Positions 17,627 to 21,371 of a stretch of DNA of 42,750 nt are shown here, in pieces; within the stretch, counting starts at the first letter, position 1; each line of letters opens with the position of its first letter. The position numbers and the translations under genes are program-made. Source of the stretch: an uncultured Candidatus Saccharibacteria bacterium. GTDB lineage: Bacteria; Patescibacteriota; Saccharimonadia; Saccharimonadales; Saccharimonadaceae. The notes below the pieces were generated by a model. That model was given only the letters and a program-made list of their open reading frames with translations, made no database searches and was not told where the DNA came from. The stretch is taken from positions 1-42,750 of the forward strand of contig CAMZEB010000006.1 in NCBI GenBank assembly GCA_947305705.1, in the 5' to 3' direction.

Positions 17627-17640
17627 TTAGATTCAAGAGA

Positions 17641-17673
17641 AAAATGAGCTAACAAAATAGCTCATTTTTTTAT
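17641..17673 (+). terminator. Terminator after yebC
   Basis: AAAATGAGCTA and TAGCTCATTTT with a six-base loop, the second arm running into a seven-T tract. The A run on the left also allows some function on the minus strand. Confidence 0.8.
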
Positions 17674-17684
17674 GCATAATGCGA

Positions 17685-17690
17685 TATAAT
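17685..17690 (+). promoter_or_regulatory. -10 box for the HTH-MurA gene (leaderless type)
   Basis: TATAAT ends seven bases before the ATG at 17698, with no Shine-Dalgarno. Confidence 0.55.
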
Positions 17691-17697
17691 TATAAGC

Positions 17698-19239
17698 ATG
17701 AATAGTAAAGCAAATTATATGGTTGAAATCGGTAATATTATTGCGAATGCACGCATTCGTAAGGATATGACTCAAGCCGAATTAGCAAAAATGATTGGCA
17801 CTAGCCAATCCGCAATCAACCGTATAGAACACGGAAAACAAAATGCATCTCTTGAGATAATTTCCAAGATTGGTCGTGCATTAAATCAGCAAATTATTTC
17901 CATCAACGAAGGCGCAACTCAGGGCTACCGTATTAATGGCGGGAAAGAGTTACACGGCAGCATAACGATTAACACTTCCAAAAACGCCGCCGTCGGATTG
18001 TTGTGTGCATCACTGCTAAATCACGGCAAAACCACATTGAAACACCTCGCTCATATCGAAGAAGTATACCGCATTCTAGAGGTGCTCGAATCGATTGGCG
18101 TAAAAACGACCTGGATAAACGACGGAAAAGATCTCGAAATCGTGCCGCCAAAGAAACTCAATTTAGAGAATCTAAATGTCGAAGCAGCACGTCGCACACG
18201 CTCAATAATTATGATGATGGGGCCGCTGCTCCATTTCTCAGAGAAATTCCGATTACCTTACGCTGGCGGTTGTTCGCTCGGTTCGCGCACAGTTGAACCG
18301 CATCTCCACGCCTTAAAAGGCTTCGGATTAGAGGTTGACGCAAAAACTAACTCTGGTTTTTACGAAATAACAGTAGATAAAAACGCAAAGAAGGAGCGCA
18401 AAATTGTACTAATCGAGCGTGGCGATACCGTGACCGAAAACGCTATTATGGCAGCAGCACTCTTCCCTGGCGAAACGAAAATCGTTGGCGCAAGCCCGAA
18501 CTATATGGTACAAGACGTTTGTTTCTACCTTGAGAAACTCGGTGTCGTAATTGACGGTGTAGGCACGACAAACTTAGTCGTCCACGGCATGAGCCATATA
18601 TCGAAAAATATCGTATATGAACCAAGCGAAGACCCGATTGAGGCGATGAGCTTCATTGCGGCAGGCATTGTGACGAAATCAAGAATTGAGATTAAACGTG
18701 TTCCGATTGAATTCCTAGAGATTGAGCTCGAAGTTCTCCGTAGTATGGGGCAAAAAATGGACATATCGGAAGAATATTTTGCCAATAATGGCCGTACGCG
18801 TCTTGTTGATATTCAGCTGCAAAAATCTAAGCTAAAAGCGCCTGTCGATAAAATTCATCCGATGCCTTTCCCTGGCCTAAATATCGATTCACTACCGTTC
18901 TTCTCTGCAATTGCAGCAACTGCCGAAGGGCGCACGCTGATACACGACTGGGTGTTTGAAAATAGGGCGATTTATTCTACTGAGCTAGCAAATCTGAACG
19001 CAAAAGTAGAACTCCTAGATGCCCACCGTATCTTCGTTAATGGCCCAACAAATTGGCGCCCAGCCGAAATGATGGCGCCTCCTGCATTGAGGCCGGCCGT
19101 CGTAATTATGCTTGCGATGCTAGCGGCACCAGGCAAATCCATTTTGCGTAATACTTATTCGATTGCGCGCGGCTATGAAGACTTTGCGAATCGTCTATGT
19201 CAATTAGGCGCAGATATCGAACAGTTGTCAGACCTGTAA
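17698..19239 (+). CDS. XRE-type HTH fused to MurA-like enolpyruvyl transferase
   Basis: A 513-aa fusion. Residues 9-68 form an XRE/Cro helix-turn-helix (MTQAELAKMIGTSQSAINRIEHGK); 77-513 align along the whole of MurA, which adds enolpyruvate to UDP-GlcNAc. Retained counterparts of E. coli MurA residues are Lys95 (K22), Arg168 (R91), Cys192 (C115), Arg197 (R120), Asp397 (D305), Arg423 (R331) and Arg491 (R397). Altered are Asp369 (here Ala463), Arg232 (a Pro here) and the Glu-Pro-Glu segment near 188-190. So it may be an enzyme with self-regulation, or a sensor derived from MurA. It is monocistronic or first in a group with gatC, and is probably leaderless. Confidence 0.85.
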   Translation: MNSKANYMVEIGNIIANARIRKDMTQAELAKMIGTSQSAINRIEHGKQNASLEIISKIGRALNQQIISINEGATQGYRINGGKELHGSITINTSKNAAVGLLCASLLNHGKTTLKHLAHIEEVYRILEVLESIGVKTTWINDGKDLEIVPPKKLNLENLNVEAARRTRSIIMMMGPLLHFSEKFRLPYAGGCSLGSRTVEPHLHALKGFGLEVDAKTNSGFYEITVDKNAKKERKIVLIERGDTVTENAIMAAALFPGETKIVGASPNYMVQDVCFYLEKLGVVIDGVGTTNLVVHGMSHISKNIVYEPSEDPIEAMSFIAAGIVTKSRIEIKRVPIEFLEIELEVLRSMGQKMDISEEYFANNGRTRLVDIQLQKSKLKAPVDKIHPMPFPGLNIDSLPFFSAIAATAEGRTLIHDWVFENRAIYSTELANLNAKVELLDAHRIFVNGPTNWRPAEMMAPPALRPAVVIMLAMLAAPGKSILRNTYSIARGYEDFANRLCQLGADIEQLSDL

Positions 19240-19257: not shown

Positions 19258-19263
19258 TATAAT
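19258..19263 (+). promoter_or_regulatory. -10 box for the gatC operon (leaderless type)
   Basis: TATAAT ends six bases before the gatC ATG at 19270. No terminator separates it from the HTH-MurA gene, so read-through is also possible. Confidence 0.6.
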
Positions 19264-19269
19264 TCAAGT

Positions 19270-19557
19270 ATGGCTATTACTAGAAAAGATGTCCTGCACT
19301 TAGCAGAGCTATCCAATATATCGCTTAGCGAAGAACAGATAGAGCCGTTAATTCGGGATCTTGATAATATTGTTAACTATTTTTCTCAGCTCGATGAACT
19401 GAATACCGAAAACGTCGAACCTACTTATCAGTGTTTTGATATGCAGAATGTTTGGCGCGAGGATGAAATAAAAGAATTCGAAGCGAATCGTGAAGATTTG
19501 CTCGCGTTAACCGTAGAGAGCGAAGATAATCAAGTAAAGGTACCAAAAGTTCTATGA
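19270..19557 (+). CDS. gatC: Asp/Glu-tRNA amidotransferase subunit C
   Basis: A 95-aa subunit that wraps around GatA and stabilises the GatCAB complex. The segment VLHLAELSNISLSEEQIEPLIRDL and the NTENVEPTY element are typical. Its stop overlaps the gatA start in ATGA, so translation is coupled. Confidence 0.93.
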   Translation: MAITRKDVLHLAELSNISLSEEQIEPLIRDLDNIVNYFSQLDELNTENVEPTYQCFDMQNVWREDEIKEFEANREDLLALTVESEDNQVKVPKVL

Positions 19558-20942: not shown

Positions 20943-21371
20943 ATGCCTATTGACGGATCATTATTGGTCTTCCTAATAGCTATTGTTATTGTTGGGATTT
21001 TGGTAATCTTAGCAATCTCGATGACAAGCAAGCGCGGGCACACTTTTGATAAAGAAAACTACCAAATTGATTTCTTGCGCATCGAGCAATCACTCGAAAA
21101 AGATAACGAATCTAGCTATTCGATGGCGATTATTGAGGGAGATAAGTTACTAGATCGCGCATTAATGGAGATGGGTGTCCAAGGTAGGACAATGGGCGAT
21201 CGTCTGAAGCGCATTGGTAAGAGTAGGTTTACACAGCTTAATGCAGTTTGGCACGCGCATAAACTACGCAACCAGATAGCACACGAGCACGACTTTAAGC
21301 CAGAATATCGACAAGCAATGCACGCATTAGAGACCTATAAACAAGCATTAAAAGATTTAGGAGCAATTTAG
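20943..21371 (+). CDS. Membrane-anchored HEPN-like protein
   Basis: A 142-aa protein with one N-terminal TM helix (about 8-27) and a cytoplasmic helical domain. Residues 103-116 read WHAHKLRNQIAHEH, containing Arg109-Asn110 and His114, the R-x4-H pattern of HEPN domains, many of which are RNases or bind nucleotides. It sits three bases after gatA and abuts gatB directly, inside an otherwise standard gatCAB operon; GGAGGG at the end of gatA serves as its ribosome site. The HEPN call rests on this motif and the helical pattern, and needs a structure comparison. It might act on RNA near the membrane or be a structural HEPN relative. Confidence 0.6.
   Translation: MPIDGSLLVFLIAIVIVGILVILAISMTSKRGHTFDKENYQIDFLRIEQSLEKDNESSYSMAIIEGDKLLDRALMEMGVQGRTMGDRLKRIGKSRFTQLNAVWHAHKLRNQIAHEHDFKPEYRQAMHALETYKQALKDLGAI

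Follow-up and report, generated by a model that had tools for sequence, protein, structure and literature searches.

What kind of protein results when a DNA-binding domain is joined to an enzyme of cell-wall synthesis? The window, by which we mean the whole 42,750-nucleotide stretch of Candidatus Saccharibacteria DNA analysed here, contains an open reading frame that raises this question, since its product, here called HTH-MurA, carries an XRE helix-turn-helix (HTH) domain ahead of a MurA-like protein. The original prediction allowed for two readings of the fusion: a sensor of UDP-GlcNAc or PEP that controls cell-wall genes, or an active enzyme that regulates its own gene.

Domain make-up, copy number and active site

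The reading frame is intact, starts with ATG and codes for 513 residues (Table 1). That a complete XRE domain precedes a full-length MurA fold, as had been proposed from the sequence, was borne out by Pfam (HTH_3, 51.2 bits against a cut-off of 23; EPSP_synthase, residues 80-500, 171 bits against a cut-off of 22.8) and by comparison with solved structures, among which MurA was the best match, spanning residues 70-512. An AlphaFold model, built with 40 relatives as a single chain without DNA, had a mean pLDDT of 89.8 and showed four helices in the HTH domain (7-21, 26-33, 37-44 and 52-62). MurA crystal structures ranked first when this model was submitted to Foldseek, with a TM-score to the target of about 0.9. 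Profile and model agree that the two-domain enolpyruvyl transferase fold of MurA structures is present. The gene lies in a housekeeping neighbourhood of recA, recX, yebC, gatC, gatA and gatB (named from sequence, with Pfam matches backing yebC and gatC). Between gatA and gatB, positions 20943-21371 code for a 142-residue protein with no Pfam match above cut-off and a weak match to HEPN_Swt1.

Table 1. Features of the HTH-MurA locus (positions are those of the window)
Feature	Position	Strand	Remarks
HTH-MurA gene	17698..19239	+	XRE domain fused to MurA-type enolpyruvyl transferase; the only EPSP_synthase-family gene of the genome
XRE helix-turn-helix domain	17722..17901	+	aa 9-68; Pfam HTH_3 core aa 15-63
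Recognition helix SQSAINRIE	17803..17829	+	aa 36-44
MurA domain	17920..19227	+	aa 75-510; C192 (codon 18271-18273) corresponds to E. coli Cys115
Candidate operator TATGCATAATGCGATATA	17671..17688	+	genus variant, overlaps the -10 box; order consensus TATATCA-N4-TGATATA
TATAAT -10 box	17685..17690	+	7 nt ahead of the ATG; relatives have the same layout
Inverted repeat and T run	17640..17671	+	terminator of yebC, the upstream gene, read from sequence

We then asked whether the genome holds another enzyme for the MurA step. A search of the 885-kb genome, which is 99.5% complete, for a second, canonical murA found none; HTH-MurA is its one and only protein of the EPSP_synthase family (PF00275). 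Since the genome also has six Mur-ligase-domain matches, HTH-MurA is the only candidate for the MurA step in an organism that retains the downstream pathway. With rare exceptions, a frame of about 510 residues is the single copy in 58 of 61 genomes of the family and in all sampled genomes of the order that are at least 90% complete; MurB was found in 39 of 39 genomes of the order. In the other orders of the class the frame is mostly of 417-482 residues and scores 227-262 bits, as against 119-177 bits in the order of the window, and inspection of MurA genes from other Patescibacteria, read as long open frames, showed no HTH. The HTH-MurA fusion is order-wide in this lineage, and most of the close relatives that have a name in a GTDB-based collection are called 'Candidatus Saccharibacteria'. 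A second long EPSP-family frame in one genome (G142) was not picked up as MurA, and a viral origin of HTH-MurA was discarded when no match was found among viral contigs. Two records are irregular: one copy (L108; G145, C20) is interrupted by an in-frame stop within its HTH, has several unusual substitutions as well, and is either a pseudogene or an assembly error, and a metagenome-assembled genome labelled Candidatus Nomurabacteria (L257, JAITNW010000005.1) has an HTH-MurA that groups with the genus of the window, so that its label is probably wrong.

Alignment with E. coli MurA confirmed the counterparts first proposed for Cys115, Lys22, Arg91, Arg120, Asp305, Arg331 and Arg397, and added those of Asn23 and Arg371. 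In HTH-MurA, K22, N23, R91, C115 and R120 become K95, N96, R168, C192 and R197, and D305, R331, R371 and R397 become D397, R423, R465 and R491. The three sites initially described as altered have all changed; however, the Glu-Pro-Glu segment is not gone, E188-P-E190 being substituted by N-Y-M with no deletion, and the position of Asp369 is occupied by P/A (P462-A463). Arg232 is replaced by P313, and there are further changes of S162-V163 to G-D, P303 to N and Q307 to L. In 74 of 74 members of the order, Lys22, Asn23, Arg91, Cys115, Arg120, Asp231, Glu234, Asp305, Arg331, Arg371 and Arg397 are invariant, and the changes of S162-V163 to G-D, EPE to NYM, R232 to P, P303 to N, Q307 to L and D369 to P, A, S or Q are fixed or nearly so. 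Consequently, neither the kept nor the changed residues are noise specific to the window. Most of the unusual substitutions are common to two HTH-less Patescibacteria MurA proteins (L230 and L233) whose branches lie immediately outside the clade of the fusion; they are therefore older than the HTH and give no sign of the conversion of an enzyme into a sensor. HTH-MurA passes the cut-off of the NCBI subfamily PRK09369 (310.1 bits, cut-off 297) and misses that of the murA equivalog TIGR01072 (289.3 bits, cut-off 392.7), which marks it as a divergent clade. With Asp369, Arg232 and the EPE segment lost, its substrate or its kinetics may differ.

Replacement of Cys115 by Asp has been reported to confer fosfomycin resistance in other MurAs. 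An Asp occupies this position in 9 of 16 MurA sequences sampled from outside the order (L031-L089 sample), and all HTH-MurA have Cys. Asp369 together with Leu370 has been cited for the interaction of MurA with fosfomycin (PMC4062475).

Since the gene is the sole copy, the catalytic residues are invariant, and the same organisms have the downstream pathway of MurB and Mur ligases, HTH-MurA is best read, and most simply, as an active MurA rather than a dead sensor. Its C-terminal domain would make enolpyruvyl-UDP-GlcNAc as the only MurA of the cell.

A conserved palindrome at the murA promoter

Over 70 sequences of the order the mean identity of the HTH domain is just 58%, and within it S36, Q37, S38, A39 and E44 of the recognition helix are invariant, N41 is kept in 64 of 70 and R42 in 68 of 70; the near-invariant region comprises T35, S36, Q37, S38, A39, (I/V)40, N41, R42, E44, G46, Q48 and N49.

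The terminator that follows yebC implies that murA has its own promoter. Upstream of murA in many families of the order lies the palindrome TATATCA-N4-TGATATA, which ends at or over an extended -10 box. The ATG is usually within about 10 nt of the palindrome and -10 box, so the murA mRNA is probably leaderless. Like murA (17685-17698), gatC (19258-19270) has a TATAAT only 6-7 nt ahead of its ATG; leaderless transcription may be common in this genome. A palindrome score of at least 12 out of 14 was obtained for 40 of 70 murA upstream regions of the order, where 0.5 of 70 is expected from dinucleotide shuffles. The same score was reached by 1 of 63 other open reading frames of the same loci and by 0 of 46 non-HTH murA genes from outside the order, which rules out a general promoter feature. 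The right arm overlaps the extended -10 box (TGATATAAT), which leaves the left arm as the one part free of promoter function. This left arm is conserved when the sites are anchored on the right arm (n=62: T50, A60, T55, A43, T37, C43, A34). The site in the window itself matches the order consensus at 9 of 14 positions, having diverged in the genus of the window to a variant with TATGCA, TATGCRNNNNNTGATATA. The palindrome is rare across the 61 family genomes, with mostly 1-3 matches each, against usually none for the reversed control; in those listed with a murA locus, one match lies at murA, and most others inspected are inside coding sequence. Where the HTH has been lost, in the Saccharibacteria copy of G053, the gene adjoins its upstream neighbour and is without an operator-like site.

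HTH-MurA and its probable operator in Actinobacteria

A genome-wide scan revealed HTH-MurA proteins of full length in actinobacteria, aligned over query residues 6-513 at about 61% identity, the carriers including Streptomyces, Kitasatospora, Actinacidiphila, Nonomuraea, Piscicoccus and Mobilicoccus. In a survey of 148 evenly drawn actinobacterial genomes the scores were bimodal: eight full-length copies at 806-851 bits, together with a broken one (G493), stood apart from remaining scores of at most 262 bits, which cover mainly the MurA part. The genomes of Piscicoccus (G368) and Mobilicoccus (G374) contain only AroA and HTH-MurA, so that HTH-MurA is their sole MurA.

In the GC-rich DNA of actinobacteria, TATCTCA-N4-TGAGATA is present at 46 of 47 HTH-MurA promoters; it begins 28-30 nt ahead of the start codon, which is where the palindrome lies in Saccharibacteria too. 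The one exception (L397) is the broken copy of G493, which has a degenerate recognition helix along with its broken frame. An intermediate operator, TAGCTCA..TGATATA, precedes another copy (L396). Moreover, a TATTC left arm tracks residue 41 of the recognition helix, accompanying His in 16 of 20 cases and Asn in 0 of 108, a correlation that phylogeny confounds. At two of the loci (L284 and L292) the actinobacterial operator is repeated in near-identical form (AATCTCATATCCGAGATA) some 117 bp farther upstream than the main site, an arrangement that might permit looping or cooperative binding. In many Streptomyces (L284-L328, e.g. L308) the murA2-acnA region has, towards aconitase, another conserved palindrome of different sequence, TATCTCGATGTCGAGATA, followed by ACTCTAGTACAT; it could possibly be confused with the murA2 operator.

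When 85 MurA domains were placed in a tree, the HTH-MurA sequences of actinobacteria grouped as a single clade within the Saccharibacteria order; a focused tree of 58 rows gave this clade a support of 100/99. A constraint keeping the Saccharibacteria sequences together, the constrained group having been defined after the 85-domain tree had been seen, was rejected (log-likelihood difference 91.6, AU p = 4e-14). The nesting of the actinobacterial clade gives the direction of transfer. The trees imply that HTH-MurA passed from the Saccharibacteria episymbionts into Actinobacteria, to which their known hosts belong (reviewed in PMC12173739). The fusion would have formed in the stem of the Saccharibacteria order, from a MurA that had diverged before, and would later have moved into Actinobacteria together with its operator logic, to serve there as the Streptomyces MurA2 beside a standard MurA or as the sole MurA in Piscicoccus and Mobilicoccus. 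The transfer is a well-supported instance of genes moving out of Patescibacteria episymbionts and into Actinobacteria with the regulatory DNA logic conserved.

A candidate trigger enzyme among known systems

We consider it likely that HTH-MurA is a bifunctional 'trigger enzyme', at once the sole MurA and the repressor of its own gene, that was later transferred to Actinobacteria. Comparison across genomes establishes the palindrome as the operator of murA, in so far as sequence can, and binding and repression would proceed as follows. The XRE domain would bind the palindrome of about 18 bp on the murA core promoter, presumably as a dimer, and bound HTH-MurA would occlude the promoter and repress murA transcription, which would place the entry step of peptidoglycan synthesis under negative feedback. 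We infer further that occupancy of the MurA domain by a ligand (UDP-GlcNAc, PEP or a pathway product) probably tunes DNA binding. Autoregulation by way of a palindrome close to the regulator's own start is common among XRE proteins (PMC12565409). HTH-MurA very probably switches its own gene off. Of the two original readings, then, the better supported is the active enzyme regulating its own gene. The promoter palindrome in two phyla supports it well, and it is further backed by the invariant DNA-contact helix, the loss of the operator with loss of the HTH and the covariation of helix and operator, all of which point towards autoregulation. The sensor in place of an enzyme, controlling cell-wall genes, is unsupported as it was put forward, HTH-MurA being the only MurA in a nearly complete genome with MurB and Mur ligases, and is weakened by the order-wide invariance of the catalytic residues. 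We advance tentatively, as a possibility we would not rank above an even chance, that binding of substrate or product by MurA directly sets the transcription of murA, and perhaps of other wall genes, and that this module was donated to actinobacterial hosts and is used as the Streptomyces MurA2. On this view, an essential peptidoglycan enzyme of ultra-small episymbionts would be its own metabolite-sensing repressor, a hypothesis that can be tested in the genetically tractable Streptomyces coelicolor (SCO5998).

A catalytically dead MurA serving solely as the ligand sensor of an HTH repressor would account for the changes of Asp369 to Pro/Ala, Arg232 to Pro and EPE to NYM and for the missed equivalog cut-off, and has a precedent in BzdR, an XRE domain fused to an enzyme fold that has lost its activity (PMC3602430). 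We regard it as very improbable: such loss of the catalytic site is not seen in HTH-MurA, in which Cys115, Lys22, Asn23, Asp305, Arg120 and Arg397 are invariant in 74 of 74 sequences, and which is the only MurA both in genomes that retain MurB and Mur ligases and in two actinobacteria. About as improbable is an enolpyruvyl transferase that acts, like NikO, on a substrate other than UDP-GlcNAc; the fixed changes in nucleotide and loop regions (S162-V163 to G-D, EPE to NYM, R232 to P) would suit it, but the genome has no other MurA although MurB is present, and Asn23, Asp305, Arg120 and Arg371 are retained. An active MurA might instead carry a vestigial or dimerising HTH that does not bind DNA, the palindrome being part of the promoter or bound by another regulator. 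The right arm does coincide with the extended -10 box, and genomes of this kind may code for further XRE proteins. Nevertheless, the DNA-contact residues are conserved like an active site, the left arm is strongly conserved without a promoter role, an equivalent palindrome lies at the same distance in GC-rich Streptomyces, and the operator is missing where the HTH is lost or degraded and covaries with the helix, which makes this reading improbable.

A different kind of alternative extends the trigger enzyme to a wider regulator that controls several peptidoglycan genes besides its own. In its favour, a site of the genus variant lies 2 nt before a femAB gene both in the genome of the window (C1:263153-263170; L199:1554-1571) and in a second genome of the genus (G129, L419), and another precedes murB in G353 (L428, C31:35029) with a spacing to the ATG like that of murA. 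As against this, murB promoters had no clear operator in the 20 genomes examined, so that murB was set aside as a general co-target. The strict palindrome is not clearly enriched in the own genome, with counts barely above the reversed-pattern control, and genome-wide palindrome matches gave no support for a regulon, the extra sites inspected being mostly within coding sequence. We think a wider regulon unlikely, and control of other wall genes is a weak lead. The femAB-promoter site is a possible second target, concerned with cell-wall bridges.

With canonical MurA (E. coli, B. anthracis) the candidate trigger enzyme shares the fold and most catalytic residues at about 26-30% identity; the canonical enzyme lacks the HTH, and its Asp369, Arg232 and Glu188-Pro-Glu190 are replaced in HTH-MurA. 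By analogy, HTH-MurA resembles enzymes that moonlight as repressors, such as the biotin ligase/repressor BirA, in which an N-terminal HTH on an essential enzyme gives feedback on its own pathway. BirA differs in its winged HTH and in its control of the biotin operon, and has no sequence relation to HTH-MurA. The closest architecture is that of BzdR, a repressor made of an XRE domain and a shikimate-kinase-like domain that has lost catalysis and senses benzoyl-CoA, with an operator over its promoter (PMC3602430). Both proteins thus place an XRE domain on a metabolic-enzyme fold and have an operator over the promoter; unlike BzdR, HTH-MurA keeps its catalytic residues and is the sole enzyme of its pathway step.

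We found no description of the HTH-MurA fusion in the literature, in a search that was thin on subscription papers. In excerpts of two studies, SCO5998 (MurA2) is described together with SCO5999 (PMC12161575), is mentioned as a UDP-GlcNAc transferase and a predicted target of DmdR1 or SigB (PMC12161575, PMC8346170), and is reported to be SigB-dependent (PMC8346170); these excerpts make no mention of its HTH, of an operator of its own or of a Saccharibacteria origin. HTH-MurA of S. coelicoflavus (L308) adjoins aconitase, which matches the SCO5998/SCO5999 arrangement described in PMC12161575. S. coelicolor MurA2 (SCO5998) has the orthologous HTH-MurA architecture, 61% identity to the Saccharibacteria proteins and the palindrome at its promoter; in Streptomyces it is a second MurA beside the standard MurA1, whereas in Saccharibacteria HTH-MurA is the sole MurA.
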